Assembly: GCF_900105535.1 (NCBI RefSeq)
Contig: NZ_LT629779.1
Coordinates: forward strand, 434,001 to 498,000
DNA: 64,000 nucleotides
From: Pseudarthrobacter equi
Lineage (GTDB): Bacteria; Actinomycetota; Actinomycetes; Actinomycetales; Micrococcaceae
Direction: 5' to 3'
Shown here: piece by piece, positions 28,473 through 57,647 of the stretch
How positions within the stretch are numbered: position 1 is the first letter of the stretch
Layout of the letters: the number at the start of each line of letters is the position of its first letter
Position numbers and translations under genes: made by a program
Notes under the pieces: generated by a model
Seen by the model: the letters and a program-made list of their open reading frames with translations, nothing else
The model's database searches: none
Told to the model about the DNA's origin: nothing

Positions 28473-28484
28473 CGAAACGATTCG
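28473..28484. promoter_or_regulatory. LacI-type operator CGAAACGATTCG (PL4 distal)
   Basis: Identical to the 12-mers at 45479 and 57636. It forms a pair with 28574 (101 bp between starts). Confidence 0.75.
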
Positions 28485-28573
28485 TTTTTGCGGCTTAGCG
28501 ATAGCCCATAAGCCTGTCGAGCGCTTCGGGCAGCCACTCGATAGAATATGCGACTACCTCTCGCTGGTAAATA

Positions 28574-28585
28574 CGTAACGTTTCG
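28574..28585. promoter_or_regulatory. LacI-type operator CGTAACGTTTCG (PL4 proximal)
   Basis: Differs by one base from the perfect palindrome CGAAACGTTTCG found at 45378 and 57537. Lies 72 bp upstream of the PL4 start codon. Confidence 0.65.
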
Positions 28586-28656
28586 CTCTGGCGTGTGTTC
28601 GTCTTTCGGACCGACCGGGACGAACAGTCTAAACTCAAACGATCAAAGGAGATCCC

Positions 28657-31308
28657 GTGCAGCGCATTGCTCAGACGCGCCGCCGATTCACCGCGGTGCT
28701 CGTCGCCGCAGTAGTCGCCGCTGCCTTGTTCCCAATCAGTCCGACCAGTGTCCATGCGGCACCTGAGCCGGGCAGCTATGCACTCGACTTTGGACCAGGC
28801 GCCGTTGCAGACGGGTACCAGGGCGTCCCATGCGACAGCGCCTTCGACCCCGAACGCGGTTACGGCTTCGATAGCACCGCTAACATCGCTGGGCGGGATC
28901 GTGGCGGCGATGACCTGCTTAAGGGCGACTTCTGTTTCGCCAACACAATGAATTTCAGCGCCCAGCTTCCCACAGGTGACTACACCGTGCGGGTGATTTA
29001 TGGCGACCTATCGTCCAGCCAAGGAGCGGCAACTATTACGGCTGAGGGCCAGACCGTGGTCTCACGTGCCGGTGCAGCAGCGGGTCAATTCGTGGACCGC
29101 ACCTTCAACGCACGCGTATCTGACGGCGCACTTTCCCTATCGTTTTCGGGCAGCCCTGCACGAATCAACGCTCTAGTCATCAAGCCATACGTGTGGGAGC
29201 CAGGACTTGCCCTCACGGATGACGGAAGCGGAAGCGTACAACTGAAGAATTCTTCCGTCTCGCTTCGGATGTCCAAGAACTCTGCAGCAATCACCGAGAT
29301 CCGCCTCAACGGACAAGAACCTACCCGCAACCTGCTTGCAGGCGGTCAAGGCGACTACCTCGCCAATTATGTTGTCGCCGGCAAACGGCTCCAGAACACA
29401 CTGCGCAGCGCGGAATTCGCCATCGAATCCCAGACCGACTCCCGCATTGAGGTGTCCTTCACTGAAAATGACCCGGCCGCGCTCCCGTTCGAAGTTGAAG
29501 TGCATATCGTCCTCGAAGCCGATGCGCCTGGATTCTACATGTACTCGGTCTACCGCTACCCGGAGAACATGCCGGCAGACGTCCAGCTCGAGCAGCTGCG
29601 TTACAGCTTCTCCGGAGACAAGAACTTGTTCCGCTGGTACTCCATCGACGGGGAACGAGCAGGAGTCGCACCACTCCAGTCAGAGATCGACGCCGGCACA
29701 GAGGTACAGGACGCGACGTACCGCCTGGCGGACGGCAGCGTCTACTCGAAGTACCAGCAGATCAGCGACCCGGAGGGCACGGACGGGGTCTTCGGCATTT
29801 ACGGTGACCACATCGGTTTATCACTCATTCAGGCGAACAAGGACTGGGTTGGGGGCGGCCCCACCCGGCAGGATCTGACCACACATACGGGAGGTTCCCC
29901 GCGCCTTCTTTGGCATGAAACAACCGCGCACTACACTTCAGAACGAGTCACCCCTGAGCACGGCTGGGAAAAAATATACGGCCCATACTTCCTCTACGTC
30001 CATGAGGGCGAATCCCCGGACAGCATGTATCAGGCCGCAGTGGCCCGTCTTGGGGAAGAAAAAGCGAAATGGCCCTACAGCTGGGTGACTGATCCGCTTT
30101 ATGCAGCCCACACGCGGGGATCCGCCGCCGGCCAACTGACACTTTCAAACGTGAGTACTCCTGCCAACGCCTGGGTGCTCCTCACCGACCCCCAGTCCGA
30201 CGACTGGCAACTCGATTTCGAGAACTACATCTACTCGGCCCGGACCGACAGCGAAGGCCGATTCACTATTCCCGCCGTCCGCCCAGGCACCTACACCCTG
30301 CACGCCTTCACAGACGGTGTCTTCGGCGAGTACACCAAGACCGACGTCGTCATCGCGGAGAACGCCCGCACTGAACTCGGCACGCTCACCTGGGAACAGG
30401 AAGCACACGGACGCGAACTCTGGCGGATAGGCACCCCCGACCGCTCGGCCGGCGAGTTCCACATCGCCGAGGGCGCCGCCTCGCCCGTTCCAGGGCTGGA
30501 CCCATTCCGCAAGTGGGGCACGTGGCTCGACTACCCCACCGAGTTCCCCAATGACGTCGACTTCCAGGTGGGCCAGGATGACCCGGCCAAGGACTGGAAC
30601 TACTTCCAGCCCGCAGTGCGAACACCAGGCCTCCCGGACACACTGAAGGTGCCATACGACAGCACTCCAACGGACTGGAAGATTCGCTTCAATGCGGACG
30701 GGCGCCTGACAGGAAAAGCCACCTTGACGTTTGGAATTGCCAGCAGTGTGTTTGGCAGCCTCGATGTCTCGGTGAACGGACAGAACATCAAGACGTGGGA
30801 GACAATCCCCGGTCCGAGCAACGACTCCGCACTGTATCGGCAATCTGATCGCGGCGTTTACCGCGAACTCAGCGTCCAGTTCGATGCCTCACTGCTCCGG
30901 CCCACAGACAACGTCATTAATCTGAAACCGGTCGTACCAGCCACGGCGGACCCAAATACGTCATGGTCCAACGCCTTCGCCAGCGTGATGTACGACGCGA
31001 TCAAACTCGAGGTGGCACCGTCCTTGAACGTCGAGGCCGCGGTCTCCTCGCGATGCGAGGCGGGGAAGGTCGTCCTCGTCACGTCGCTTAAGAACAACGA
31101 TTCCGAGGCGGTTACGGCAGCTGTTCAAACGGAATACGGATCCAAGGAACAGGCTTCGGTCAGAACACACCAAACGGTGAAGGAAGAAGTCAGGACGAAC
31201 TTGCCGTCCGTACCCGCGGGTGTGCTCACGCTAGGTACGAGGGCCACAATAGGCGGCGAGGATATCTCTTATCAGCAAGAGATCGAATATCCAGGGCACT
31301 TCTGCTGA
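28657..31308 (+). CDS. Secreted rhamnogalacturonan lyase, polysaccharide lyase family 4
   Basis: An 883-residue secreted protein that should cleave rhamnogalacturonan I by beta-elimination. The signal peptide ends near residue 34 (TSVHAAPEPG). Order of domains: N-terminal malectin-like/CBM sandwich (~40-175), the large beta-sandwich lyase domain (~180-480), an fnIII-like PL4 domain (~495-575, PAVRPGTYTLHAFTDGVFGEY), a CBM-like jelly roll (~580-785) and a C-terminal ~95-residue domain (~787-883) also found in the PL11 lyase of this window. GTG start with AAAGGAG 6 bases upstream. Monocistronic, with a strong terminator at 31312. Paired LacI-type operators lie upstream, so it belongs to the same regulon as the PL11 operon. 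Confidence 0.85.
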   Translation: MQRIAQTRRRFTAVLVAAVVAAALFPISPTSVHAAPEPGSYALDFGPGAVADGYQGVPCDSAFDPERGYGFDSTANIAGRDRGGDDLLKGDFCFANTMNFSAQLPTGDYTVRVIYGDLSSSQGAATITAEGQTVVSRAGAAAGQFVDRTFNARVSDGALSLSFSGSPARINALVIKPYVWEPGLALTDDGSGSVQLKNSSVSLRMSKNSAAITEIRLNGQEPTRNLLAGGQGDYLANYVVAGKRLQNTLRSAEFAIESQTDSRIEVSFTENDPAALPFEVEVHIVLEADAPGFYMYSVYRYPENMPADVQLEQLRYSFSGDKNLFRWYSIDGERAGVAPLQSEIDAGTEVQDATYRLADGSVYSKYQQISDPEGTDGVFGIYGDHIGLSLIQANKDWVGGGPTRQDLTTHTGGSPRLLWHETTAHYTSERVTPEHGWEKIYGPYFLYVHEGESPDSMYQAAVARLGEEKAKWPYSWVTDPLYAAHTRGSAAGQLTLSNVSTPANAWVLLTDPQSDDWQLDFENYIYSARTDSEGRFTIPAVRPGTYTLHAFTDGVFGEYTKTDVVIAENARTELGTLTWEQEAHGRELWRIGTPDRSAGEFHIAEGAASPVPGLDPFRKWGTWLDYPTEFPNDVDFQVGQDDPAKDWNYFQPAVRTPGLPDTLKVPYDSTPTDWKIRFNADGRLTGKATLTFGIASSVFGSLDVSVNGQNIKTWETIPGPSNDSALYRQSDRGVYRELSVQFDASLLRPTDNVINLKPVVPATADPNTSWSNAFASVMYDAIKLEVAPSLNVEAAVSSRCEAGKVVLVTSLKNNDSEAVTAAVQTEYGSKEQASVRTHQTVKEEVRTNLPSVPAGVLTLGTRATIGGEDISYQQEIEYPGHFC

Positions 31309-31311
31309 AGG

Positions 31312-31346
31312 GACTGGGGGCGGCGCTAGCCGCCCCCAGTCTTTTT
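31312..31346 (+). terminator. Rho-independent terminator of the PL4 gene
   Basis: A perfect 13-bp stem (GACTGGGGGCGGC / GCCGCCCCCAGTC), loop GCTA and a TTTTT run, 3 bases after the PL4 stop codon. It is the most classical intrinsic terminator in the window. Confidence 0.92.
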
Positions 31347-31651: not shown

Positions 31652-32377
31652 TTGGCACTAACAGATGACGCCATCGAGAAGATCAAGGCGATGCTGCTGG
31701 CAGGTGAGCTCCGCCCTGGTGACCGGTTGCCGCCGGAAAAGGATCTCGCCGAGAAGCTTGGGCTGTCCCGCAGCTCAATGAGAGAAGCGGTTAAGGCTCT
31801 TGAGCTGATAAGGGTGCTCGATGTCCGGCGTGGGGATGGAACATACGTGACCACGCTTGACCCCCAACTCTTAAATGAAGCCCTCGGTTTCATCGTTGAG
31901 CTGCACCAGGCGCAGGGTGTAGTGGAGCTGTTGGAGGTTCGGCGCATCCTTGAGCCGGCCGCCGCCGCAATGGCAGCGCAGAAGATTGGGCAGGAGGGGC
32001 TGGATAATCTGAGGGCGTCGATGGCGGGTGTCACGGAAGAGACCAGCGTGGAAGAACTTGTTCAGCACGATATGGAATTTCACAGCATCATTGCCGCGCA
32101 TTCAGGCAATACCTACCTTGCGGGGCTTCTGGAGGCACTGTCGTCACGGACTTTACGGGCGCGGATCTGGCGGGGACTGACTCAGGAAAAGGCTGTAGCC
32201 CGGACTCTTTCCGAACACGAGGCCATCGCTGCCGCCCTGGAACGTGGGGATGTGGAGTTAGTCAGGGCGTTAGTCACTGTCCACGTCAGTGGGGTTGAGG
32301 GTTGGCTGCGGGAAACGATGCTTAAGTCCACGGCTGCTGAATATGCGCCAGCGGAACTGGCGGGGATTAATCCCTAG
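31652..32377 (+). CDS. FadR/GntR-family regulator (FCD) of the L-fucose cluster
   Basis: A 241-residue regulator: N-terminal winged HTH (KIKAMLLAGELRPGDRLPPE, AEKLGLSRSSMREAVKALEL) and C-terminal FCD domain (ELLEVRRILEPAAAAMAA; HDMEFHSIIAAHSGNTYLAG; HEAIAAALERGD). TTG start with AGGAG 6 bases upstream. It lies next to the L-fucose genes and converges on the lactonase gene with the two stop codons sharing CTAG. Proteins of this subgroup often respond to sugar-acid intermediates. The perfect palindrome at 35862 is its most probable operator. Confidence 0.87.
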   Translation: MALTDDAIEKIKAMLLAGELRPGDRLPPEKDLAEKLGLSRSSMREAVKALELIRVLDVRRGDGTYVTTLDPQLLNEALGFIVELHQAQGVVELLEVRRILEPAAAAMAAQKIGQEGLDNLRASMAGVTEETSVEELVQHDMEFHSIIAAHSGNTYLAGLLEALSSRTLRARIWRGLTQEKAVARTLSEHEAIAAALERGDVELVRALVTVHVSGVEGWLRETMLKSTAAEYAPAELAGINP

Positions 32378-34199: not shown

Positions 34200-34507
34200 G
34201 GCAGATTCCAGACCAGCTGTAGCCCGGAATCATCGCCCGAGTAATCGTCCGGAACAGCAAGCAGCTCGGCCATCCGCGCCTGCCAACTGATGTTCCCCGG
34301 ATGCTCAGCCAGTTGTTTGCGCATGGCGACGTAGTCTTCAACTTCAAGAACATGGAACAGCTCCAGGCCGCTTCGCCATATGCTCCACTCGTTCACTCCT
34401 GCCTTGTGCAGAGCGGTGGTCAGTTCATGCGGAATCTCTGCGTGCGCCCGTTCATACTCGTGCTCCCTTCCGGGACGCAGGCGCGTGTGCAACGCAATTC
34501 TTTCCAT
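34196..34507 (-). CDS. L-rhamnose-mutarotase-family protein, probable L-fucose mutarotase
   Basis: A 103-residue member of the RhaM-type mutarotase family: start MERIALHTRLRPGREHEYER, catalytic His and Tyr region, and SIWRSGLELFHVLEVEDYVA. These small cytoplasmic dimers interconvert the anomers of 6-deoxyhexoses. The neighbours make L-fucose the likely substrate. Coupled by ATGA to the dehydrogenase gene and 1 base from the dehydratase gene. Confidence 0.87.
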   Translation of the reverse strand: MERIALHTRLRPGREHEYERAHAEIPHELTTALHKAGVNEWSIWRSGLELFHVLEVEDYVAMRKQLAEHPGNISWQARMAELLAVPDDYSGDDSGLQLVWNLP

Positions 34508-34508
34508 G

Positions 34509-35819: not shown

Positions 35820-35859
35820 ATGCTCTCCTAGCCCTTAAATGAGAACTTGCATCTAAAAA

Positions 35860-35889: not shown

Positions 35890-35951
35890 TCTCGGACGTC
35901 CTCTTGAATAATGTCCCTGAGACCCATGAAACCTCTGATGTTAGGAACGAC

Positions 35952-38195: not shown

Positions 38196-39113
38196 CTAGC
38201 CTTTGAGGCCCTGGGTGGAGACGCCTTCGACGATGTAGCGCTGGAAGACGAGGAAGAAGATTAGTACCGGCAGCAGGGCGAGGACGGACATGGCGATCAT
38301 GGCGCCGTAGTCCGAGCTTTGGGTCTGGTCCACGAAGAGGCGCAGGGCCAGCGGCAGCGGGTACTTTTCGGGGGTGTTCAGGTAGAGCAGCGGGCCCAGG
38401 AAGTCGTTCCAGCTCCAGATGAAGGAGAAGATCGAGGTGGAGATCAGGGCTGGCTTCATCAGGGGCAGCATGATGGAGGTGAAGATCCGGACGTGGCCGG
38501 CGCCGTCGATCCTTGCGGCCTCGTCCAGTTCGGCGGGCAGGTTGCGCATGAACTGGACCATCAGGAATACAAAGAACGCGTCGGCGGCGAGGAACTTGCC
38601 GATCAGCAGCGGGACGTAGGTGTCAACGAGGCCGAGCTGCTGGAACACGATGTACTGCGGGATGATCACCACGTGGAAGGGCAGGAGCAGGGTGGCGATC
38701 ATCATGCCGAAGAAGATGCTCCGGCCGGGGAACTTGATTCTGGCGAACGCGTACGCCGACACGGACGCCGAGAGGATGGTTCCCACCACGGCACCAATGG
38801 CCAGGATCAGCGAGTTGGTGAAGAACTGCAGGGTGGAGACCCCGCCAATGCCCTCCATCGCGGTGACGAAGTTGTCGAAGCTGAAGTTGTTGGACCACAG
38901 CGACGTGTTGGAACCGCCGATTTCCGAGTTTGGCTTGAAGGACGACGCGATCATCCACAGGCCCGGGTACAGGACCACGGCCGTGAGCCCCAGGGCCACG
39001 ATGTGGAAGATGGTGCTCTTGGCGCGCTTTGCCCCGGCTGACTCGGACTTTGGGTTGTAATGCGGAACCTGCGCGTCCGGGGTGGACTGGGTGGGGGTTG
39101 CCATGGTTGTCAT
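38196..39113 (-). CDS. Carbohydrate ABC transporter permease (MalG type)
   Basis: A 305-residue permease with six membrane segments and the EAA loop DEAARIDGAGHVRIFTSIML that docks the ATPase. The N-terminal extension with KSTIFHIVALGLTAVVLYPG and the C-terminal IVEGVSTQGLKG (the usual 'VxGLTxGAVKG' tail) place it with MalG/LacG-type subunits. It is the last gene of the five-gene alditol oxidase / PL11 / binding protein / permease / permease operon and overlaps the preceding permease by ATGA. No ATPase gene is present; a shared MsiK-like ATPase elsewhere is expected. Confidence 0.92.
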   Translation of the reverse strand: MTTMATPTQSTPDAQVPHYNPKSESAGAKRAKSTIFHIVALGLTAVVLYPGLWMIASSFKPNSEIGGSNTSLWSNNFSFDNFVTAMEGIGGVSTLQFFTNSLILAIGAVVGTILSASVSAYAFARIKFPGRSIFFGMMIATLLLPFHVVIIPQYIVFQQLGLVDTYVPLLIGKFLAADAFFVFLMVQFMRNLPAELDEAARIDGAGHVRIFTSIMLPLMKPALISTSIFSFIWSWNDFLGPLLYLNTPEKYPLPLALRLFVDQTQSSDYGAMIAMSVLALLPVLIFFLVFQRYIVEGVSTQGLKG

Positions 39114-40063
39114 TTTGCATCACCGCTGTAGTGGACCCAGGACTTGGAGGTGCGGAAGAAGATCAGGGTAATGATGCCGACGACGATCACCAGCAGCCAG
39201 GCCATTGCCGAGGCGTAGCCCATCCGGAAGTCGCTGAAGCCCCGCAGGTAGAGGTAGAGGGTGTAGAAGAGGGTGGAACCGGCCGGGCCGCCGTCACCGT
39301 TGGAGATGATGTAGGCCGAGGCGAAGATCTGGAACGCGTGGATGGTTTCCATCAGCAGGTTGAAGAAGATGACCGGGGAGAGCATGGGCCAGGTGATGTT
39401 GAAGAACTTCCGCACCGGGCCGGCGCCGTCCATGGACGCCGCCTCGTAAAGGTCCGCGGGGATTTGCTTCAGGCCGGCCAGGAAGATCACCATGGGGGCG
39501 CCGAACTGCCACACGGTCAACAGGATGAACATCGGCATGGTCATGGCCGGGTTGCCCACCCAGCCGCCGAGGTTGATTCCGAAGAAGGACAGGCCTTGGT
39601 CCACCGGACCGGAATCGCCGAACATGGCCTTCCAGACGATCGCGATGGATACGGACGCACCGATCAGGGACGGGGCGTAGAAGGCGGAGCGGTAGAAACC
39701 CTGGCCGCGGCGCTTACTGTTCAGCAGCATGGCCACCGCCAGTGCCGCGGCGAGCTTCAGCGGGGTGCCGAAGACCACGTAGCCCACGGTCACGCCTACC
39801 GACTGCAGGAACCGTTCGTCCTGGAAGAGGGTGGTGTAGTTGTCCAGTCCGATCCATTTGGGCGGATCGAACAGGTTGTAGTTGGTGAAGGACAGGTAGA
39901 GCGAGGAAATCATGGGCCCGACAGTGAGGGCGATGAATCCCAGCAGCCAAGGCAGCAGGAAGGTGTAGCCGGCGCGGGCGTCCGCCCCGCGCTGCTTCGA
40001 CTTGCGAAGCTGCGCGGGAGCGGACGACGTCGAACGCCTGCTCAGTGTTGGGCTTTGAGTCAC
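39110..40063 (-). CDS. Carbohydrate ABC transporter permease (MalF type)
   Basis: A 317-residue permease with six membrane segments; EAA loop YEAASMDGAGPVRKFFNITW; typical start of helix 1 (YTFLLPWLLGFIALTVGPMI) and FTNYNLFDPPKWIGLDNY. It pairs with the MalG-type permease encoded next to it and with the binding protein upstream. The substrate is likely unsaturated rhamnogalacturonan oligosaccharides released by the lyases; this is inferred from the operon. Confidence 0.92.
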   Translation of the reverse strand: MTQSPTLSRRSTSSAPAQLRKSKQRGADARAGYTFLLPWLLGFIALTVGPMISSLYLSFTNYNLFDPPKWIGLDNYTTLFQDERFLQSVGVTVGYVVFGTPLKLAAALAVAMLLNSKRRGQGFYRSAFYAPSLIGASVSIAIVWKAMFGDSGPVDQGLSFFGINLGGWVGNPAMTMPMFILLTVWQFGAPMVIFLAGLKQIPADLYEAASMDGAGPVRKFFNITWPMLSPVIFFNLLMETIHAFQIFASAYIISNGDGGPAGSTLFYTLYLYLRGFSDFRMGYASAMAWLLVIVVGIITLIFFRTSKSWVHYSGDAK

Positions 40064-40129
40064 GAATTCAATCCATTAGTAGGGAGGCGAGGCTGGGAGC
40101 CTGATTGTCAGGCAAGGGTATGGGCCCAG

Positions 40130-41419
40130 TTAGCCGTTTTGTTTGATGACGTCTTCGGCTTCCTTGAACCATTGCTCGACGGCTGCGTCAACGGTGAGTT
40201 TGCCGTAGTTCAGGTCGGAGCCGGTGCGTTTGAAGGAGGCTTCGAGCGTGCCGAAGCCGACGATGGGCGGCTCGGGAGCGTCCTTGAGGTACTTCTCGAT
40301 TGACTTCTCGTAGTCCACCACGAGCTTGTCCGTACCTTCGAAGGTGGTGCCGTCACGCTGACTCTTGGAGGCCGGAACGCCGCGGGAGGTCTTGAAGATC
40401 TGGCCCACCTCGGGGTCGTTGACCATGAAGTCGATGAAGCGGGCGGCGGCGTCCTTGTACTTGGTCTTGGAGCTGGCCACCATCAGCATCGCGGGCTTCA
40501 GGAACAGGCCCAGGTTGTCCGGATCGTCCGACGGGACCGGAACCAGCTTGAGTTCCTTGGCGCCGCTGTCCGTGAGGTAGCCAGCCATGAAGTTATCCCA
40601 GGTGACTTCGGATGCCGAGATGTTAGACCCAAAAGGGGACTTCGGCAGCAGCTGGGTGACTCTCTCTTCCGGGACGATGGCGCCTGTGCCGCGAAGATCG
40701 GCGGCCAGATTCCACCATTGCCGCAGGTCGTCCTTGGTGAAGCCGAGCTTGCCGTCTTCGGTGAAGGCCTTGATGTCTTTTTGGCGGAGCCAAACGTTGA
40801 AGTTCCACCAGATACCGGTGAAGTCGGCGGTTCCATAGAGCGTACCGCCGCCTTTGGAACCGACTTCTGCGAGGAAGCTTTTGTACTCGGTGTAGTTCCA
40901 CGTGCCGTCGGGTTCGGCGATGCCCAGGTTTTTGAGTTTGGCCGGGTCGTAATAGACGGCGAAGGCGTTGGTTCCGATGGGCAGGCCATAGGTCTTACCC
41001 TTGATCTGTCCCGAGGGGAGCAGGGACTTGTCGAAACCGTCCTTGTTGATGTTTACGCTGTCCAGGTCCAGGAGCTGGTTGCGCTGGCCGTAATCACGCA
41101 GGTAGGACAGGTCCCACTGCATCACGTCTGGCAGCCCGCCGCCCGCGGCCTCGGTGGCACGCTTCTGCCAGTACCCGGCGAAGTCGGAGAAGTTACCGTT
41201 GACCTTGATGTCCGGGTTCTTCGACTCAAACAAGGCAATGGCCTTCTGCATTCTTGTTGCCCGGTCGTCAGTGCCCCACCAGGTGTAGTTGATGGTGACG
41301 GGATTCTCGGCGGACCCCGTCTGTCCCGAGGTGCTTGACCCGGTTCCACACGCGGCGAGGATGCCGGCAGATGCGGTGCCGACGGCGACTGTGGTGAGGA
41401 AATGCCTTCTGTTGAGCAT
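40130..41419 (-). CDS. Carbohydrate ABC transporter solute-binding lipoprotein
   Basis: A 429-residue extracellular solute-binding protein of family 1. It begins with a twin-arginine-like stretch (LNRRHFLTTVAVG) and a lipobox ILAAC, followed by a Gly/Ser linker. Internal marks are NYTWWGTDDRATRM, WQKRATEAAGGGLPDVMQWD, YGLPIGTNAFAVYYD. The start at 41419 has GGAGG 5 bases upstream. Third gene of the operon, 43 bases after PL11. Captures oligosaccharides at the outer face of the membrane. Confidence 0.92.
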   Translation of the reverse strand: MLNRRHFLTTVAVGTASAGILAACGTGSSTSGQTGSAENPVTINYTWWGTDDRATRMQKAIALFESKNPDIKVNGNFSDFAGYWQKRATEAAGGGLPDVMQWDLSYLRDYGQRNQLLDLDSVNINKDGFDKSLLPSGQIKGKTYGLPIGTNAFAVYYDPAKLKNLGIAEPDGTWNYTEYKSFLAEVGSKGGGTLYGTADFTGIWWNFNVWLRQKDIKAFTEDGKLGFTKDDLRQWWNLAADLRGTGAIVPEERVTQLLPKSPFGSNISASEVTWDNFMAGYLTDSGAKELKLVPVPSDDPDNLGLFLKPAMLMVASSKTKYKDAAARFIDFMVNDPEVGQIFKTSRGVPASKSQRDGTTFEGTDKLVVDYEKSIEKYLKDAPEPPIVGFGTLEASFKRTGSDLNYGKLTVDAAVEQWFKEAEDVIKQNG

Positions 41420-41462
41420 GGGTGCCTCCATGGCGGTGATTAGTTGCGTGATGATTGACGGA

Positions 41463-44060
41463 TTACTTGCAGGTGATGCCGGGGAATGCGGCCTCGTAGG
41501 CTGCGGTGTGGGTTTGACCCTCTGCGTTTGTTGATGCCGTGATAGTTATGAGCCCGGGGTCCATCGCGTTGCCCTTGGGTTTGAACCGCTCCTGGACCGT
41601 TGCCCCCGGCTTGATGTTGTTGACCTTCTTTTCCCCGTAAGGAGTGACGATTTGCGCATCAACCTTTACGCCCTCGTTGTTGAGGACGTCGACTGTAAGA
41701 ATTGGCTTATCTCCTTTGCATTGTGCGGCGGCCGTGACTGAAACGTCAGGGGAGGCCCGGGTCAGCACGATGCGGGGGAGCGGCACCTTTCGGAAGTCCA
41801 TGTCGGAGGCGAGATAGAAACTTGTGTAGCTGGGCTGGTTGTAGGTGGTGTTCTGGCGGGCGACTTCTGCACGGTACTGCGGGTCATGCATCAGGGTGTA
41901 GAGCTTGTGCTCGGTCAGTTCGGTACTGAAGTGGATACGCAGAGCAGTGCTGTCCTGAGTGCCCAAAAGTAGCTCTTCGCGCCAGTCGCCGAGCACGTCG
42001 GCAGCAAGCCCCGGAACTGCCCGGGTGCCTAGGTTTGTGCGGGTGCCTTCTGCGGTGAGCAGGCGCCCGCGGGTCCTGTCGTCGATCACGGGCGTCGTTT
42101 GGGTGCCACTGGACCAGTTCAGGGTCTGTGTGGTCATATCCGGGCCCCACTTGATACCGAAGTTCGTGCTGGGGGTAGTTGCGGACAGGCGTTGTCCGGT
42201 TGCCGACCAGAGCCCGACTGCCCAGCTTTCGATTCCCCGGGTGTTGGGGTCGATGTCGCCGATGGTTCCCCTGCCCTGGTCCCGACCAGTGTAGGCACCG
42301 AAAATGGGAGAACCGGTGGCGGCATCACGGAGAACGTACCCATAGGGCGCACGGGTGGCATTCTCGTGGACACTGAAGATTTCAACTCCCGGACGGTCCG
42401 GGTCGATGTCTGTGACGTGCAGGTGGTCGCCGTGACCAAGTTTGGCGATGGTGCCGGGTGCGGCGCTACCTTCCGGAAGAGCGCCATAGGAGCTGTAGAG
42501 CAGCGACCCGTCGTCGTCGATGGTGGCTGACCCGTAGACGATCTCTTGTTTGCCGTCGCCGTCGACGTCGGCGGCACTGAGGGAGTGGAAGCCCTGATTC
42601 GTGAGCGAGGCAAAAGCGGGATTAGTGCCGTCCCGGCCGTGAGGAGTGTCGTTGAATGGGTTGTTCATGGGGACCCAGCCGCTATCAATGTCCCATCGCG
42701 TGCTCAGCTGCTTGCCGTCCCAGTCGTAGGCGACAAGGTTGGTCCTGGTGTAGTAGCCGCGGGCGAAGACAGCTGAGGGTTTGTGTCCGTCCAGGTAGGC
42801 GATGCCGGCGTTGAACCGGTCTACACGGTTGCCTGGCTCGATGCGTGCATAGGCGTAGTCACCCCACATGAGTCCATCGTCGCCCCGGCCTGGTTCGTAG
42901 GCCACGGTCTGCAGTTCCGTGCCCGTGGCGCCATCAAACACTGTCAGGTATTCGGGCCCGGAAAGGATGAAGCCTTGGAAGGCGCGGAGGTTGTTCCGTG
43001 CGCTGCGCGACGGGGCGTAGACGTCCATGAAGTGGTCGGCCAGAGCCTCCGCGTCTTTCCGGTTCAGCGGGTAGCTGTACTGGTTGGGGATTCCGAAAGC
43101 GGCTTCCAGAGTCGCCGGCCACGTCCCGGCGGCGACTTCCGGATGGGTGGCCCATCCCTGAAACATGTTGACCACGTGTTCGTAGTAGTCAGCGGGACTG
43201 ACGCGGTAGTCGTCTGCGTTGCTGCGGCCTGCCGCGATATCCTCCGCCAGAAGGGTGACGAACTTTTCACCAATGACCTGGCCGTCCTTATAAGAGACAG
43301 TCTTGGTGCCGGGTGCGGTTTTGAGCATGACTTCAGCACGACTGTCCCCGTCGAAGTCATAGACCATCAGTTCGGTGTAGTGTTCGCCGGCCCGGATGTT
43401 CGGCCCCATGTCCAGGCGGTACAACTGGGTGCCGTCGGCGCGGTAGGCATCGACGTATACGGTTCCGGTGTAACCCACGAGGGAAACATCTTTTGCGTTG
43501 CTTGGGTCCCACTTGACGAAATATTCATATTGGCCGTCTCCGTCGACGTCGCCCACGCTCATATCCCCGGTCTGATAGCTGTAGGGCTCTCCTGCGGGAG
43601 TGATACCGTCGGCGGGCTTGTTCAGGGGCACTTCCAAGTAGCCTTGTTCTTGGGGTGTGACGCTGGCGCTGTGGGCGGTTTCCGCGCCGTTGACCACAGG
43701 CACGACAGTGTAGGCAGTCCCAGCGGGGGCCCCGGCGTCAAGATAGTTTGTGCTTCCGGTCACGCTCGAGAGGATTGTCCCGTCCCTGTAGACGTTGAAG
43801 TCGGTGCCGGTCAGTCCTGTCTCGGAGGCTCCTGTTACTTCGGTGCCCAACAGTCTCCAGCTCAGGAAAACCCCGTCCGCCGTGCGCGCAGCGATGAGTC
43901 CTCGGTCTAGGTTTTCCAATTGCACACCGTTATAGGCTGCACCGGGTGCCGCCGATGTATCGGCTGCGGCGGCCGGCACTGCGGCCGCCGAGGAGCAGGC
44001 GATGAGGGCGGCCGCGCCGGCGGCAGCTGTCCGGGTCCGCAGTCTGTGCAGAATCATCAT
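41463..44060 (-). CDS. Secreted rhamnogalacturonan lyase, polysaccharide lyase family 11
   Basis: An 865-residue secreted PL11 enzyme (YesW/YesX relatives), an eight-bladed beta-propeller that cleaves rhamnogalacturonan I. After the signal peptide (AAGAAALIACSSAAAVPAAA) comes an fnIII-like domain (~25-130; ARTADGVFLSWRLLGTE), then a propeller rich in calcium-binding repeats: GDVDGDGQYEY, YDFDGDSRAEV, ADVDGDGKQEI, TDIDPDRPGVEI, GDIDPNTRGIE and ADVLGDWREEL. The last ~95 residues are a separate domain with homology to the C-terminus of the PL4 lyase. Second gene in the operon, 22 bases behind the alditol oxidase gene; an in-frame Met 18 codons earlier would overlap that gene and is rejected. Confidence 0.93.
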   Translation of the reverse strand: MMILHRLRTRTAAAGAAALIACSSAAAVPAAAADTSAAPGAAYNGVQLENLDRGLIAARTADGVFLSWRLLGTEVTGASETGLTGTDFNVYRDGTILSSVTGSTNYLDAGAPAGTAYTVVPVVNGAETAHSASVTPQEQGYLEVPLNKPADGITPAGEPYSYQTGDMSVGDVDGDGQYEYFVKWDPSNAKDVSLVGYTGTVYVDAYRADGTQLYRLDMGPNIRAGEHYTELMVYDFDGDSRAEVMLKTAPGTKTVSYKDGQVIGEKFVTLLAEDIAAGRSNADDYRVSPADYYEHVVNMFQGWATHPEVAAGTWPATLEAAFGIPNQYSYPLNRKDAEALADHFMDVYAPSRSARNNLRAFQGFILSGPEYLTVFDGATGTELQTVAYEPGRGDDGLMWGDYAYARIEPGNRVDRFNAGIAYLDGHKPSAVFARGYYTRTNLVAYDWDGKQLSTRWDIDSGWVPMNNPFNDTPHGRDGTNPAFASLTNQGFHSLSAADVDGDGKQEIVYGSATIDDDGSLLYSSYGALPEGSAAPGTIAKLGHGDHLHVTDIDPDRPGVEIFSVHENATRAPYGYVLRDAATGSPIFGAYTGRDQGRGTIGDIDPNTRGIESWAVGLWSATGQRLSATTPSTNFGIKWGPDMTTQTLNWSSGTQTTPVIDDRTRGRLLTAEGTRTNLGTRAVPGLAADVLGDWREELLLGTQDSTALRIHFSTELTEHKLYTLMHDPQYRAEVARQNTTYNQPSYTSFYLASDMDFRKVPLPRIVLTRASPDVSVTAAAQCKGDKPILTVDVLNNEGVKVDAQIVTPYGEKKVNNIKPGATVQERFKPKGNAMDPGLITITASTNAEGQTHTAAYEAAFPGITCK

Positions 44061-44082
44061 CGATCTCTTTCGTGGTTTCGGG

Positions 44083-45336
44083 TCAGGAGCCAATGACTCG
44101 GCGCAGGTAGTCATTGCTGAATTTTCCGGTCGGGTCCATTCGATTGCGGAGCGCCTGGAAGTCGGGAAGCCGCGGGTACAGGGTTTTCATGAGGTCAGCT
44201 TGAGCAACAAACGTCTTGCCCCAGTGTGGGCGGGCGTCGAAGGGTGCGAGCACTTTTTCTATGCGGGGGAGGAGGTTGGTGAGCGCGTCCGGCCGGTTGA
44301 GCCAGGTGAAGTGGATTGCAAGCGATGGACGTTCGTAGGCCATACTCAGCCAGAGGTTGTCAGCAGCTGTGGACCGGATTTCACTTGCAATCAGATGTGG
44401 GGCAATTTCGGATGCGAGTCCTCGGAGGGCATCCATGGCGGCGGCTCCGTGCCTGCGGTCTACAAAGTACTCCGACTGGATTTCGTCGCCATTGGACGGG
44501 TTTGCGTCCACACGGAAGTGGGGGAGACGTTCGAGCCACGGTCCAGGGATTCCACCCTGCACAGTGCGGTTCGCGCCCAATGCCGCCAATTCGGGATCTC
44601 CATGATGCATCGCAGGTGCCCCGAACAGCTCTGTCGGGACCTCAGCGTCGACATCCAGCCTGGACTTAACAAGCACACGTGAAGCAGTCGGCTCATCCCA
44701 GACAGTAAAAATGCTGACGCTGTAACCCGCGGCCATCACAGTGTCGAGCTCGCCAATCACAGCCTCCCAGGGAAGGTCCCGGAAGACGTCCTGACGCACC
44801 TCGTAGGTCGGCTCGATATCGACGGTCAGGCGAGTGATAATGCCGAGTGCACCCAGGGATGGGACGATGCCCGCAAACTCCGGGTGGGAACGGTCAAAAT
44901 CCAGGACTTCGCCCTCCGCATTGATCAGCTGCACTCCGGCTACGGCAGTTGAAAGGATTCCATTCGTGTCGCCGGAACCGTGGGTTCCCGTCGCCGTTGC
45001 TCCACCAATGGAAATATGGGGGAGTGATCCCATGTTTCGCAGCGCCCAGCCGCGATCGTGGAGCCATGATGCCAGTACTCCGTAGCGTGTGCCGCTGCAC
45101 ACCGAAACCGTGCGCGCCTGCTCATCGAGCTGCACATCAGGCTCCAGCTGAACCAGAGAAATCATGGTCTCGCCGTCTGCGATGTCATTGAATGAGTGCC
45201 GCGTCCCGACCGCCCGGACCCTGTCGAGGGAGCCGACGATTTCGGCGGCTTCGGAAAGGGACCCTGGAAGGTAGAGGCGCCGCGCACCAAAGGTGTGCGT
45301 GCCTGCCCACGTGGTGCCAACATCCGTGGTGTACAT
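44083..45336 (-). CDS. Alditol-oxidase-type FAD enzyme
   Basis: A 417-residue flavoprotein, the same length as Streptomyces AldO (xylitol/alditol oxidase). FAD-binding PCMH domain with RAVGTRHSFNDIAD, in which His47 corresponds to the covalent FAD-linking histidine, and SIGGATATGTHGSGDTNGIL. The C-terminal D-arabinono-lactone-oxidase domain ends with PHWGKTF and RNRMDPTGKFSNDYLRR. No signal peptide. Such enzymes oxidise terminal alcohols of polyols, giving H2O2. It leads the five-gene operon with the PL11 lyase and ABC importer and has its own promoter and two LacI-type operators. Its physiological substrate in pectin use is unclear. Confidence 0.85.
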   Translation of the reverse strand: MYTTDVGTTWAGTHTFGARRLYLPGSLSEAAEIVGSLDRVRAVGTRHSFNDIADGETMISLVQLEPDVQLDEQARTVSVCSGTRYGVLASWLHDRGWALRNMGSLPHISIGGATATGTHGSGDTNGILSTAVAGVQLINAEGEVLDFDRSHPEFAGIVPSLGALGIITRLTVDIEPTYEVRQDVFRDLPWEAVIGELDTVMAAGYSVSIFTVWDEPTASRVLVKSRLDVDAEVPTELFGAPAMHHGDPELAALGANRTVQGGIPGPWLERLPHFRVDANPSNGDEIQSEYFVDRRHGAAAMDALRGLASEIAPHLIASEIRSTAADNLWLSMAYERPSLAIHFTWLNRPDALTNLLPRIEKVLAPFDARPHWGKTFVAQADLMKTLYPRLPDFQALRNRMDPTGKFSNDYLRRVIGS

Positions 45337-45377: not shown

Positions 45378-45389
45378 CGAAACGTTTCG
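45378..45389. promoter_or_regulatory. LacI-type operator CGAAACGTTTCG (alditol oxidase proximal)
   Basis: A perfect 12-bp palindrome located 19 bases downstream of the -10 box of the minus-strand promoter and 41 bp before the oxidase start. Pairs with 45479 (101 bp between starts). Confidence 0.82.
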
Positions 45390-45408: not shown

Positions 45409-45438
45409 ACGCTACATTTCATAGACCTCAGCCGTCAA
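45409..45438 (-). promoter_or_regulatory. Promoter of the alditol oxidase-PL11-ABC operon
   Basis: On the minus strand TTGACG (45438-45433), an 18-base spacer and TAGCGT (45414-45409). It lies between the two LacI-type operators, so repressor bridging them would enclose the promoter. Confidence 0.6.
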
Positions 45439-45478: not shown

Positions 45479-45490
45479 CGAAACGATTCG
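45479..45490. promoter_or_regulatory. LacI-type operator CGAAACGATTCG (shared by divergent operons)
   Basis: Lies 11 bp before the aldo/keto reductase start and ~75-80 bp upstream of the alditol oxidase promoter's start region, so it can act on both directions. Identical to 28473 and 57636. Confidence 0.8.
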
Positions 45491-45501: not shown

Positions 45502-46554
45502 ATGATGTCCTCCCTTACCCCTGTTGACGTCACCTCGGCCGCGACGGCACCCCTCCGCCTCGCGAGTGGAGCGTCCATTCCAAGAGTCGGGTTCGGAACG
45601 TTCGGTTCAGATCGCTACGGATCCGATGCTGTGGCCCGGGCGTTGCGGATTGCTCTGGGCGCGGGTTACCGGCTCATTGATTGCGCCTCCGTGTACGGTA
45701 ATGAGGCGGACGTTGGAGCTGTTTTGGAAGAGGCGCTGCAGGACGGAATCAACCGCAGCGATCTGTTCGTCATGTCAAAAATCTGGAACGACGCTCACGA
45801 GCCGCTGGCCGCCATCGCCTCGGTTGAAAAATCCCTGACCGATCTGCGCCTGGATTATCTGGATGCCGTCTTCGTGCACTGGCCGTTTCCCAACCATCAT
45901 GCCCCGAAAGCCGGAACTGATGCCCGGGATCCTGCGGCCCGGCCCTATGACCACGCCGCGTTCATGAAATTGTGGAAAGCTCTCGAGTCGCTGGTCGATG
46001 CCGGCCTTGTACGCCATCTGGGCACGTCAAACGTCACCATCGCCAAGCTTCAACGAATCTTGGCCGATGCCCGCATCGCACCTGGCTTGAACGAGATGGA
46101 GCTTCATCCCAGCTTCCAACAAGGCGAGCTGTTCCAGTTCTGCCTGGACCATGAGATCCAGCCTGTTGGATACAGTCCGCTTGGTTCGCCGTCCCGCCCG
46201 GCGCGGGATACTACTCCTGACGATGTTTCAGACATGGATCTGCCCCCAGTTCGGGCAATTGCTGAGGCCAGGGGAATTCACCCCGCGCTCGTGTGCCTGA
46301 AGTGGGCGGTCGCGCGGGGCCACATTCCCATCCCCTTTTCGGCGAAGGAGCTCCAGATTGTCGCCAACCTCCACGCCGCGCTCGAAGATCCGCTCACTCC
46401 CGAGGAAATGGAGCAGCTACGATCAGCCGAGCGCAACAGCCGCCTTATTAAGGGGCAGGTCTTCCTGTGGCCGGAGGCCGGGTCATGGCTCGATTTGTGG
46501 GACGTTGACGGAACCATCCCTGGCTGGAACGGCTATGGAAGCCCCACGCTATGA
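45502..46554 (+). CDS. Aldo/keto reductase
   Basis: A 350-residue AKR with the standard barrel motifs: GFGTFGSDRYGSDAV, the catalytic Asp/Tyr in RLIDCASVYGNEADVG, Lys in FVMSKIWN, His in FVHWPFP and LGTSNV. Two ATGs stand in tandem (45502, 45505); AAAGG fits the second slightly better. It overlaps the LacI gene by ATGA. The FucU and GH29 genes follow, so it may act on a sugar or sugar alcohol from pectin. It is a different AKR subgroup from the L-fucose dehydrogenase at 33213. Confidence 0.88.
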   Translation: MMSSLTPVDVTSAATAPLRLASGASIPRVGFGTFGSDRYGSDAVARALRIALGAGYRLIDCASVYGNEADVGAVLEEALQDGINRSDLFVMSKIWNDAHEPLAAIASVEKSLTDLRLDYLDAVFVHWPFPNHHAPKAGTDARDPAARPYDHAAFMKLWKALESLVDAGLVRHLGTSNVTIAKLQRILADARIAPGLNEMELHPSFQQGELFQFCLDHEIQPVGYSPLGSPSRPARDTTPDDVSDMDLPPVRAIAEARGIHPALVCLKWAVARGHIPIPFSAKELQIVANLHAALEDPLTPEEMEQLRSAERNSRLIKGQVFLWPEAGSWLDLWDVDGTIPGWNGYGSPTL

Positions 46555-47600
46555 CTTCCACTCCGTATAGTTCGAAGACTATGGCGACTTACAAGGACAT
46601 CCAGCGGCTTACCGGGCTTTCACTTTCCACGATTTCGAAGTACTACAACGGCGGCAGCGTCCGCCAAAGTAATGGCGAGGCTATCCAGCGCGCTGCCGAC
46701 GAGCTGGGTTTCCAAATCAACGACTTCGCACGCAGTCTGCGACGAGGTACCAGTCAAACGGTGGGCGTTTTGCTGCCTGCACTGGACAACGGCTTCCACC
46801 TCGCAATTATCGCCGGCGTGGAAAAGTACCTGCAGGTGCACGGCGTTGGCGTCATCGTGGTTTCAAGCCATCCCGAAGAAAGACGGCCAGGCGGTGCGGT
46901 TGATGCCCTGCGCTCGAAGCGGGTGGACGGCATCGTCGCAGTGCCGTCAGTCCACGATGCTGAAGCGCTTAAACAGGCTGATGAGGCTGGGATACCGGTA
47001 GTCACAGTCGACCGCACCTTTCCGGGCCTGGAAACAGATCATGTCCAGCTTGACAACTATGCAGCCGGGGCCATGGTGGCCCATTATCTTCTCGACCACC
47101 GCCACAAGCGGATAGCCATCATCGGCGGCGACCATTCCGTTCCATCGCTTACCGAACGCCATAATGGCTTCCTTGACGCGCTGGAGCAGCGAGGAGTAGA
47201 CCGCGAGGAATCCTGGTCCTCTGAAAACGACCTCACCATCGAAGCTGGACGACGCGCAGTTCGGCTACTGCTGGCGCGCGGCAACCGGCCAACGGCCATG
47301 TTCGCAGCAAATTACGAATTGACCGTTGGCGCGTTGATAGGACTTAACGAATCCGGTCTGGTCGTGCCGGACGATATGTCCTTCGTCGGGTTCGACATCG
47401 CTGAGATCGCCCAAGTGACCCGTCCCCCGATGGCCACAGTCGTCCAACCCATGGCTGAGATCGCCGAACACGCAGCACGCCGGATACTGGCCCGGATGAA
47501 CAGCTCAGACGCACCGCGGGACATGCAGACCCTTCCAGCTGATTTGCGCACGGGAAGCTCCGTGCGTCACCTCGGACAGCCCGCCTCCACCGCGACCTGA
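46551..47600 (+). CDS. LacI-family transcriptional regulator (intact)
   Basis: A 349-residue LacI/GalR protein, full length: HTH (TYKDIQRLTGLSLSTISKYY), hinge region (ARSLRRGTSQTVGVLLP) and periplasmic-binding-like core (VDGIVAVPSV, IPVVTVDRTFPG, RIAIIGGDHS, DMSFVGFDIAEIAQ, PPMATVVQPM). The recognition helix STISK with Lys instead of the usual Arg is uncommon. It is the only intact LacI gene in the window and sits inside the cluster whose promoters carry paired CGAAACGWTTCG operators, so it is the first candidate for binding them. Coupled to the aldo/keto reductase by ATGA. Confidence 0.9.
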   Translation: MTSTPYSSKTMATYKDIQRLTGLSLSTISKYYNGGSVRQSNGEAIQRAADELGFQINDFARSLRRGTSQTVGVLLPALDNGFHLAIIAGVEKYLQVHGVGVIVVSSHPEERRPGGAVDALRSKRVDGIVAVPSVHDAEALKQADEAGIPVVTVDRTFPGLETDHVQLDNYAAGAMVAHYLLDHRHKRIAIIGGDHSVPSLTERHNGFLDALEQRGVDREESWSSENDLTIEAGRRAVRLLLARGNRPTAMFAANYELTVGALIGLNESGLVVPDDMSFVGFDIAEIAQVTRPPMATVVQPMAEIAEHAARRILARMNSSDAPRDMQTLPADLRTGSSVRHLGQPASTAT

Positions 47601-52246: not shown

Positions 52247-53922
52247 GAGATGTTCTCCTTCGACGCGGTTTTTGCAGGGTGTTCGGCGCGTTTGGCCAGC
52301 AGCTCGTCATAGGCACGGACTGAGGGCAGGGGCCGGCTATCAGAAGGCAGCCCGGCGATGACGGCCGCCGGGTCCATGAGTCGACGCTGGGTCAGGCTGA
52401 CAACGCGTTGCACTTTCGCTTGAGCGTGGGCACCGCGATGACGGTCCGACCTGGGCCCACCCTCAGCGGCGGAGGTCGTTGCGTGTCTGCGGGCTTCGAC
52501 CGCGACGACATCGGCGCTTACCGCACCCACCCGCAGCGCGGCGGTGATCCCTGCCTGAATGTCTGCAGCGTCCATAGACCGGTGGAGCAGCAAGACATCG
52601 ATCAGTTCACGAGTCCCTTCGGCGTCGCCGTTGACCCGGCGCGAGGCGGCCCAGAAGGCCTCATGGGCGCTGGTGAAAGAACCTGATGCCCGAGCCCGTG
52701 CCAAAGCCGTGGAACCAGGCAAAGCACCGGGTTTGGTCTTGAGGACCTCCAGGTAATGGTCCAGCTGAACCGACTGGCCGCCCTTGGCGACGATTCTCTG
52801 ATGCCGGGCCGCCACCGCGCGGCCGTCGAACACCACAAGCTCTGACGCCCGCAAGGACACCCGGACCCTTCGGCCGATGAACCGTGCCGGTACGGAGTAC
52901 TTCACCATCCGCACCGTGATCATTGAGGATCTGTCCACTCTTGGGTTCAGCACGAGACCGGGGTCGAACTCTTCGGCCGGCAACGGCGCCAGGAACGGGC
53001 GCTCGGCGGCGAAGTCGTGGCCGATGGTGCGGATCCTGCCATCGAACCGCCGCTGATCGTCCTCCGCCTCCCTATACCGGATCCGGTCGTTGAGCTCCTC
53101 AAGGGACTTCGCGACAGGCATCGGGGTAAGGCGGTTGCGGCGGAACCAGCCCACTTCGCCCTCGACGCCGCCTTTCTCGTGAGCCCCGGCAATACCTGGT
53201 TGGCAATAAAAAGAATCAAAACCGTAGAACGAGCGGAACAACACCCACCGGTCGTTCTCCACACGGTTCCGGCCCTGCCCGAACACCACGGTCCTGACGG
53301 CACTGGTGAGGTTGTCATAGCGGATGTGCTTCACAGGCACGCCACCGATCTCATTGAACGCTTCGATGTGACCTTCCAGAAATGCTTCCTGCGCCTGAGT
53401 GGGGTAAACCCGGTGGATCGCTTTGCCGGAGTGGGAGAGACGGAAGATGAACATATGGCACTTCGTCTTCACCCCGTCCAACACGATCCAGACCTCACCG
53501 AAGTCCACTTCAGCCTCCGCGCCCGGGGCATGTTCTTGCGGAACAAACACCTCAACCCTGCGGCCGGCCTCCACATCGATCTGCGCCCGGCGGACCCGGA
53601 CGTAGTCACGCACCGTCGAATACGACAGCTCTAGCGCATCGTGCTCCTCAATGAGCCGGGCAAGAATCCTACGGGCCGTGTGGCGTTGCTTCCGCGGAGC
53701 CGTCGTGTCCTCGACCAGCATTGCGTCAATGGCCGGTTTAAAGGGATCCAGCCGAGGCGAGGACCTCACCGGAGTCTTCCGTGCTGGAGGGACGGGATCC
53801 GACAATGCCTGCCGCACCGTGTCCCTACCAACTTGATACCGCTTTGCCAGACCGCGGATGGATAACCCCTCGATACGGGCATCTCTGCGAATACTGGCAA
53901 ACAGCTCCAAGCGCGCTCTCAT
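52243..53922 (-). CDS. istA: IS21 transposase IstA
   Basis: A 559-residue DDE transposase. N-terminal HTH (SIRGLAKRYQVGRDTVRQAL), then the catalytic core: Asp in GAEAEVDFGEVWIV, Asp in IRYDNLTSAV, and Glu in HEKGGVEGEVGWFRRN. The C-terminal beta-barrel (YSVPARFIGRRVRVSLRASE) and a basic tail follow. The frame is open over the full expected length, so the element may still be active. The start at MRARLELF is favoured; an in-frame Met lies 4 codons earlier. Confidence 0.95.
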   Translation of the reverse strand: MRARLELFASIRRDARIEGLSIRGLAKRYQVGRDTVRQALSDPVPPARKTPVRSSPRLDPFKPAIDAMLVEDTTAPRKQRHTARRILARLIEEHDALELSYSTVRDYVRVRRAQIDVEAGRRVEVFVPQEHAPGAEAEVDFGEVWIVLDGVKTKCHMFIFRLSHSGKAIHRVYPTQAQEAFLEGHIEAFNEIGGVPVKHIRYDNLTSAVRTVVFGQGRNRVENDRWVLFRSFYGFDSFYCQPGIAGAHEKGGVEGEVGWFRRNRLTPMPVAKSLEELNDRIRYREAEDDQRRFDGRIRTIGHDFAAERPFLAPLPAEEFDPGLVLNPRVDRSSMITVRMVKYSVPARFIGRRVRVSLRASELVVFDGRAVAARHQRIVAKGGQSVQLDHYLEVLKTKPGALPGSTALARARASGSFTSAHEAFWAASRRVNGDAEGTRELIDVLLLHRSMDAADIQAGITAALRVGAVSADVVAVEARRHATTSAAEGGPRSDRHRGAHAQAKVQRVVSLTQRRLMDPAAVIAGLPSDSRPLPSVRAYDELLAKRAEHPAKTASKENIS

Positions 53923-54001
53923 CCGGACCTCCAAATGTTGCTTTCATCAGATGAAGCAACATTGAGGGTGGTCCTGGTTCAGACCGTCACAACCAACCGG
54001 C

Positions 54002-55899: not shown

Positions 55900-55965
55900 G
55901 AAGTTTGTTCCTTTGCGAAGCGTCGCTGTCACCCGCCCGTTCGCGCGGGTGACAACGACGATCTC

Positions 55966-57315: not shown

Positions 57316-57536
57316 ATGTCTACTTCACTTCCTCAAGCAGGGTGATGGGTTATGTACGGGTGAATAATTTCGAGCTAGCCAGCTTCCTGTTGCTGGCTTG
57401 TTCTTGGCGTATGGCGCACTTTCAGGGACGCCGGTAGGCGCAGGGATGCGACGTCATTTGCCCCAGCCTCGAAGGCTAGTGGTCCCGGCGACGTATACGA
57501 TCTACAGAACCTCCAAAAGCGCGCTGAGCACCAAAA

Positions 57537-57548
57537 CGAAACGTTTCG
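57537..57548. promoter_or_regulatory. LacI-type operator CGAAACGTTTCG (second ABC operon, proximal)
   Basis: A perfect palindrome, 20 bases downstream of the -10 box at 57569. This is the same spacing (19-20) as at the alditol oxidase promoter. Pairs with 57636 (99 bp between starts). Confidence 0.82.
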
Positions 57549-57568
57549 CCTTTTGTGATCAGAGTTAC

Positions 57569-57596
57569 GTTATATTCTGAGACGACTATTCGTCAA
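57569..57596 (-). promoter_or_regulatory. Promoter of the second ABC operon
   Basis: On the minus strand TTGACG (57596-57591), a 16-base spacer and TATAAC (57574-57569). It sits between the two operators, as in the alditol oxidase control region. The leader to the first codon is about 245 bases. Confidence 0.65.
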
Positions 57597-57635
57597 TCTT
57601 TGAGACCGGAGGGTCGCATCGCCGTTCGTGTATTA

Positions 57636-57647
57636 CGAAACGATTCG
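57636..57647. promoter_or_regulatory. LacI-type operator CGAAACGATTCG (second ABC operon, distal)
   Basis: Identical to 28473 and 45479; about 75-85 bp upstream of the expected transcription start. Confidence 0.8.

Follow-up and report, generated by a model that had tools for sequence, protein, structure and literature searches.

Why should three promoters of a single locus each carry the same palindrome twice, about 100 bp apart? The stretch of Pseudarthrobacter equi DNA analyzed here (the window, 64,000 nucleotides, C1:434001-498000 of the genome) has such pairs in front of a PL4-type rhamnogalacturonan lyase gene, of an operon with an oxidase, a PL11 lyase and an ABC transporter (ABC1), and of a second ABC transporter operon (ABC2). 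The six sites are very probably, as judged from sequence comparison, operators of P0001, the LacI-family protein encoded at 46551. The constraint on spacing, followed across related loci, suggests that the two operators of each pair act together. Well supported at the sequence level are the sites themselves, the regulon, its link to P0001 and the promoter-like boxes within two of the three pairs.

An earlier note on this DNA had placed the sites at 28473, 28574, 45378, 45479, 57537 and 57636, with start-to-start spacings of 101, 101 and 99 bp; all six are found at these coordinates and the distances are as given:

28473..28484, + strand: operator 1a, CGAAACGATTCG, PL4 pair, upstream site (28.8 bits)
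28574..28585, + strand: operator 1b, CGTAACGTTTCG, PL4 pair, site nearer the gene, 101 bp (26.2 bits)
45378..45389, - strand: operator 2, CGAAACGTTTCG, oxidase-PL11-ABC1 operon, proximal site (24.4 bits)
45479..45490, + strand: operator 2', CGAAACGATTCG, oxidase operon, distal site (25.2 bits)
57537..57548, - strand: operator 3, CGAAACGTTTCG, ABC operon 2, proximal site (28.7 bits)
57636..57647, - strand: operator 3', CGAAACGATTCG, distal to ABC operon 2, 99 bp (24.0 bits)

The palindrome is even (CGAAAC/GTTTCG), and five of the six sites are perfect or imperfect at one pair only. All six contain the central CG, which is the usual operator form in the LacI family (PMC4052901; this and the other papers are cited from those parts of their text that were accessible). 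With uniform spacings assumed over 60-160 bp, three pairs within a 2-bp range have p ~0.002. In the genome (one contig of 4,459,078 bases), CGWAACGWTTCG has exact matches at seven places, six of them the window sites, and its reversed control at none; the seventh (C1:2423975, L087) is unpartnered, scores 13.8 bits and lies inside an open reading frame called coding by a simple gene finder. Exact CGAAACGWTTCG occurs at five places, every one inside the window. At one mismatch, CGAAACGWTTCG occurs at 17 places (reversed control, two forward and three reverse matches), and no pair is present among the 11 of these outside the window. With two mismatches allowed, the window has 13 strand-matches versus 12.4 expected, so that the signal is confined to near-perfect sites. 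These are almost wholly confined to this locus and are not common at random positions of the genome, which the earlier note had proposed to scan together with related genomes.

The relatives comprise 40 loci picked by a P0001-related LacI protein; L031 of Amycolatopsis (28% identity), with no site within one mismatch, is excluded. With a matrix built from the six window sites only, 39 of the 40 (all but L070) have a site scoring 12 bits or more; among 200 control loci of each kind, 18 base-shuffled and 25 dinucleotide-model ones have such a site. By this difference the six sites can very probably be assigned to P0001: the sites travel with the regulator. With their near-uniqueness to the locus, this supports the single LacI regulon over ~29 kb put forward earlier. 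The helix-turn-helix (HTH) core TGLSLxTISK is identical in all 30 aligned proteins (A1) and in 40 of the 41 locus proteins, L046 having one change. In 18 regulator-bearing genomes, own genome included, the palindrome CGWAWCGWTWCG occurs at 1-8 places per genome, within 2 kb of the LacI gene in 16 of them (counted by hand; exceptions G387 and G316). Seven single distant sites in the relatives (L080-L086) have no partner of at least 11 bits within their 3-4 kb. The 14-bit counts given below use a matrix trained on set 1, so that set-1 sites fit by construction and the window-only matrix serves as the check. Many CGAATCGATTCG sites are distant from the LacI gene, and these sites were omitted from the training. 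Genomes G916, G387 and G913 have repeated CGAATCGATTCG sites distant from the LacI gene, perhaps the operators of another regulator.

Pairs with both sites of at least 14 bits within 300 bp are present in 23 of the 40 relative loci, compared with none of 200 dinucleotide-model loci, 12 of which have a single site. The 24 adjacent pairs are spaced by 54, 55 (three times), 66 (four times), 67 (six times), 68, 69, 89, 90, 101, 132, 133, 143, 172 and 203 bp. Only one of the 24 falls at 99-101 bp, with 99 and 100 bp found besides for weak partners, and a universal spacing of 99-101 bp is rejected. Spacings near 100 bp belong mainly to the nearest clade (101, 101 and 99 in the window; 101 in L030; 100 in L025, with a weak partner; clade support 100/99), and other lineages keep the helical phase. 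Thus, a loop tuned to ~100 bp, or to the ~9.5 turns of the earlier note, does not hold as a general design. At 11 bp per turn, ~100 bp is ~9 turns, and it amounts to 9.4-9.6 turns only at 10.5 bp per turn. The spacer sequences of the window and of the relatives are at chance identity and yet the lengths are retained: for ABC2, 99 bp both in the window and in L043 (where the partner is weak and the two proteins compared are 57 and 65% identical to those of the window), and for PL4, 101 bp in the window, 101 in L030 and 100 in L025. A fixed proximal/distal order of the two operator variants, also claimed, is rejected as well, since the CGAAACGATTCG type is proximal in L030, L025 and L043. In Kribbella, overlapping palindromes offset by 5 bp (CGAAACGATACGATTCG) occur at L026:9977-9993. 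Three operators in series occur at L053:3941-4073 (67+54 bp) and at L071:9194-9337 (67+65 bp, the middle one weak).

The phase between the operators is supported statistically, from the sequences compared. The spacing minus the nearest multiple of 11 is between -1 and +2 in 21 of the 24 adjacent pairs and, with the window-only matrix, in 17 of 19. A circular test over 18 promoter classes gives R 0.62 with p 0.0004 for a period of 10.5 bp, and R 0.61 with p 0.0007 for one of 11.0 bp; the best period is 11.35 bp (p 0.00015 after a scan over 10-11.6). The 18 classes contain the weak pairs L029 (213 bp) and L101 (87 bp), which are dropped in the version with both sites of at least 14 bits (n=16, p 0.0017 and 0.0003); L071 at 132 bp (weak middle site at 67) and the weak pairs L079 (139 bp) and L073 (a lone LacI-side site with a weak partner 188 bp away) belong to no class. 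A stricter set of 14 classes gives p 0.009 (10.5), 0.005 (11.0) and 0.0024 (scanned period), the 15 distinct spacings p 0.008, and a test weighted by the 10 clades of the LacI tree, in which the members of a clade share one jitter, p 0.007 (10.5) and 0.0036 (11.0). With spacings over 150 bp dropped, a post hoc cut, R rises to 0.86-0.88 at 11 bp and is just 0.58-0.62 at 10.5. The phase idea had been recorded at 10.5 bp before the 23 loci of sets 2 and 3 were scanned, and these later loci match the set-1 phase (p 0.046 at 10.5 bp); at 11 bp, a period adopted only after set 2 was seen, p is 0.006. At 11 bp the clustering is near whole turns, as for the operators of a gal-type loop; at 10.5 bp there is clustering too, with a mean phase of 0.40-0.47 turn. 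The fitted period is near the helical repeats of 11.08 and 11.60 bp per turn fitted to in vivo lac data from E. coli (PMC1762422). Hence what is conserved in related loci is the phase, near 11 bp per turn, and not the particular 99-101 bp.

P0001 is a member of the LacI/GalR family, with the HTH, the hinge helix and the periplasmic-binding-protein core. The core domains match Pfam PF13377 and PF00532, and the HTH matches PF00356 at 22.7 bits, under the cut-off of 27. Full-length structural matches are PurR and RbsR (the best two), CcpA and LacI, and P0001 can be aligned to PurR until near the C-terminus. LacI itself has a C-terminal tetramer helix. P0001 and 29 aligned homologues have PurR-like ends, by eye without that helix, and the structure model of P0001 is coil beyond residue 333 (pLDDT, the predicted local distance difference test, below 50 at 344-349). 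A LacI-type tetramer, the bridge suggested in the earlier note, is therefore rejected for P0001, and bridging would need contact between dimers as in GalR.

The genes behind the pairs are as follows:

28657..31308, + strand: PL4-type rhamnogalacturonan lyase (Pfam PF14683, PF14686, PF06045)
38196..41431, - strand: ABC transporter 1, two permeases and a solute-binding protein (Pfam)
41463..44114, - strand: PL11 rhamnogalacturonan lyase (Pfam PF21348, PF18370), probably in one operon with the gene at 45336, from order and strand
44083..45336, - strand: FAD-linked oxidase of sugar-lactone/alditol type, leading the operon (Pfam PF04030, PF01565; NCBIfam TIGR01679 below cut-off)
45502..46554, + strand: aldo/keto reductase (Pfam PF00248)
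46551..47600, + strand: LacI-family repressor P0001, 349 aa, without the tetramer helix
54110..57315, - strand: ABC transporter operon 2, solute-binding protein and two permeases (Pfam)

The Pfam matches agree with the PL4, oxidase/PL11/ABC and ABC2 genes named before, except that "alditol oxidase" as such is not confirmed, the FAD-linked product of the gene starting at 45336 resembling D-arabinono-lactone oxidase. The regulon also takes in a divergent operon that had been overlooked: pair 2 lies between oxidase-PL11-ABC1 (-) and aldo/keto reductase-LacI (+), with 11 nt between operator 2' and the reductase ATG, so that P0001 probably controls itself. A relative of the reductase gene is found near the LacI gene in many of the relative loci. 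No site of at least 14 bits occurs at the rhamnonate-type catabolic genes (32374-37594) or at the isomerase-kinase genes (60873-63101).

Where do the promoters lie with respect to the operators? Candidate boxes are the following:

28429..28455, + strand: promoter-like TTGACG-15-TATAAT with a short spacer, shortly before operator 1a (read from the sequence)
28542..28547, + strand: weak -10-like TAGAAT between the two PL4 operators (promoter-box scan)
45409..45438, - strand: promoter-like TTGACG-18-TAGCGT between the pair-2 operators (promoter-box scan)
57569..57596, - strand: promoter-like TTGACG-16-TATAAC between the pair-3 operators (promoter-box scan)

Pairs 2 and 3 thus have promoter-like boxes between their operators, and the better PL4 box lies outside its pair. 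The spacer of that box, 15, is outside the scanned range of 16-19; its TATAAT is perfect and ends 17 bp before operator 1a. Given this TATAAT, operator 1a may be the promoter-proximal one at PL4, and the second PL4 operator would be a downstream auxiliary if the upstream box is used. A stricter simple promoter/terminator scan, run on the pair-2 region alone, found nothing there. A TTGAC box lies between the operators in 17 of the 25 pairs examined, including all nine SBP1-type pairs (TTGACT). Apart from window PL4, pairs spaced by ~100 bp have 45-48 bp from the distal centre to the -35 box and 17-20 bp from the end of the -10 box to the proximal site; for the SBP1-type pairs of 66-69 bp, L107 and L053, the corresponding distances are 21-24 and 8-11 bp. 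These operator-to-promoter distances were compared in 11 promoters, hand-picked from 32 rows as those with a TTGAC-like box (TTGCCA in L028), with only one of the eight near-identical SBP1-type set-2 promoters used. The distances to the -35 box are weakly phased (R 0.46 and 0.43), whereas the operator-operator sum has R 0.92 (T 11; 11 promoters), and a permutation of sum versus parts gives p 0.0001. That the sum is well phased while its parts are less so points to contact between operators.

The account that we consider probable as a whole is a local rhamnogalacturonan regulon in which P0001 operators are joined by a dimer-dimer loop around the promoter. P0001 (46551-47600) would be the local regulator for the breakdown and uptake of rhamnogalacturonan, a side-region of pectin, with each operator bound by one of its dimers. 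At the oxidase-PL11-ABC1 and ABC2 promoters, one operator would lie just past the predicted transcription start and the other upstream of the -35 box. Two dimers in contact would close a DNA loop of ~9 turns that encloses the promoter and excludes the polymerase; a sugar from rhamnogalacturonan would release both dimers. The P0001 gene would be self-repressed via the divergent pair 2. Lacking a tetramer helix, P0001 has its model in the gal loop rather than in the lac tetramer.

Several observations weigh against such looping, or against its generality. In 17 of the 40 relative loci there is no second site of at least 14 bits within 300 bp; they have one strong site or strong sites widely spaced, and for 7 of them a second, weaker site (6.6-13.8 bits) is found 55, 56 (four times), 87 or 100 bp away. 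The spacings 172 and 203 do not fit the phase, 69 is 3 bp off, the weak partners of L029 at 213 bp and L079 at 139 bp are both out of phase at 11 bp, and the spacing of L026 is either 84 or 89 bp, depending on the reading. In addition, the promoter classes were grouped by hand after seeing the data, the independent lineages are few (~10), and the coarsest version of the test, 8 centroids with a scanned period, gives p 0.11. Eight of the 25 pairs (window PL4, ABC2 of L043, L026, L028 with TTGCCA, L070, L098, L102 and L106) have no TTGAC box between the operators. The PL4 promoter of the window may be outside its pair, and its likeness to the PL4 promoter of the relatives is for this reason doubtful. 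One may then consider two independent operators per region without any loop, one blocking elongation or opening downstream and the other blocking the polymerase from the -35 side, or each serving one divergent promoter. The loci without a second strong site agree with this, as does the position of pair 2, and of several pairs of the relatives, between divergent operons; the genes flanking the two AcrC operators of Actinoplanes, which are 182 bp apart, are also divergent, looping being only proposed there (PMC5526262). However, the promoter box lies between the sites in pair 3 and in the SBP1-type pairs, and across lineages the phase of the spacing is kept better than the distances to the -35 box. 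We find independent operators unlikely.

A phase could also result from contact with RNA polymerase or from a shared ancestry of the promoters instead of contact between operators. Many pairs do come from related promoters (the 66-69-bp SBP1-type class is one LacI clade), and the promoter boxes are conserved within that class; but the operator-to-(-35) distances are much less phased than their sum in the 11 hand-picked promoters, the clade-weighted tests are still significant, and the spacers of the window resemble those of the relatives no more than by chance. Such an origin of the phase seems to us quite improbable. As to the protein involved, 22 other loci of the strain score above the LacI-HTH cut-off, including a gene remnant at 49509. 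Binding of the six sites by one of these is hardly to be expected, however, as motif and HTH travel with P0001 relatives in 39 of 40 loci and the near-perfect sites of the genome are almost all at this locus.

With the loop between P0001 dimers taken as the preferred reading, a wider proposal can be made tentatively, at somewhat under even chances. A dimeric LacI subfamily of actinobacteria would use short promoter-enclosing loops, whose lengths would have evolved almost only by whole turns (~5, 6, 8, 9, 12 and 13), so that the genomes would record both the ~11-bp in vivo helical repeat of high-G+C Gram-positives and dimer-dimer bridging without a tetramer domain. In E. coli, the lac operators O1 and O3 are ~90-100 bp apart. 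As in the lac O3-O1 loop, which is phase-dependent, a LacI-family repressor and a palindromic operator pair that may bracket the promoter are found here; unlike in lac, P0001 has no C-terminal tetramer helix, the pair occurs at several promoters and the loop length would vary between lineages. The gal OE-OI system is closer in that neither GalR nor P0001 has the tetramer helix. GalR binds as one dimer per operator, and stacking of the dimers closes the loop, with optima at 103, 113, 123 and 133 bp and loss at half turns (PMC4693257). The gal loop requires HU, and both gal promoters are inside one 113-bp loop. Ravcheev et al. 2014 find more than one site in ~20% of regulated operons, with intersite peaks at 22 and 32 bp, interpreted as helical multiples (PMC4052901). 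Those tandem sites correspond to adjacent dimers, whereas the present ones, 54-203 bp apart, are spaced by neither 22 nor 32 bp and mostly have the promoter box inside. The words rhamnogalacturonan and pectin are absent from the main text of that paper.

The RhaR regulators of Actinomycetales and RhiR of Rhizobiales and Erwinia are LacI-family regulators of rhamnose and rhamnogalacturonide genes, and resemble P0001 in its proposed control of rhamnose-oligosaccharide uptake and breakdown; unlike here, no paired, phased LacI operators appear in the section on them (PMC3870299). AcrC, an actinobacterial LacI-family repressor, differs in its motif and in having a single region, and no comparative phase evidence is given in the portion of text concerned (PMC5526262). 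A literature search on operator spacing across genomes and on actinobacterial or pectin LacI looping, mostly without subscription papers, gave no report of this regulon or of a 54-143-bp phase across species in the text accessible. Phased LacI-family sites at 22/32 bp and the proposed looping of AcrC are thus already known, and what is added is an unusually informative comparative series. Knowledge of repression loops rests on few enterobacterial models. If the loop exists, the series would offer natural loops of differing lengths under one regulator outside those models, closed by a repressor without a tetramer domain, and would allow helical phasing to be tested through comparison and not just through mutation. 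The rhamnogalacturonan regulon, now defined, becomes predictable in pectin-degrading soil and plant-associated actinobacteria.

P0001 is found in few genomes: only the own genome among 197 of its family (E up to 1e-60), 10 of 396 of the order, own included (E up to 1e-50), 4 of 394 of the class sample, own included, and 14 of 398 of family f19 (E up to 1e-60). A search of the family of G701 for further relatives gave 1 of 22, one already known. Among sequenced proteins in general, its relatives number 232 at E up to 1e-60. Since it is found so rarely, the locus is patchy and was probably acquired in this strain. L045 and L071-L078 have closely similar LacI proteins and 66-69-bp pairs yet belong to different families (f13, f19), which suggests that the whole uptake locus was transferred between families.

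Elsewhere in the window, 12904-15366 encodes an 820-aa UvrA-like protein, under the UvrA cut-off, with PADLOC matches to the mad3 and mad8 profiles. Three large open reading frames at 17791-23591 on the - strand (838, 338 and 756 aa) match nothing in Pfam, NCBIfam or PADLOC at the thresholds applied. The remnant of a second LacI-family gene (49503-50040) has a good HTH match and an early TGA followed by decay, and stands beside an IS21 element. Over 99% of its length this element matches a copy on an Arthrobacter plasmid at 88% identity, a hint, though no classification, that the host is likely related to Arthrobacter. It has transposase and IstB genes and occupies 51431-53934 between a fucosidase-like gene and ABC operon 2.

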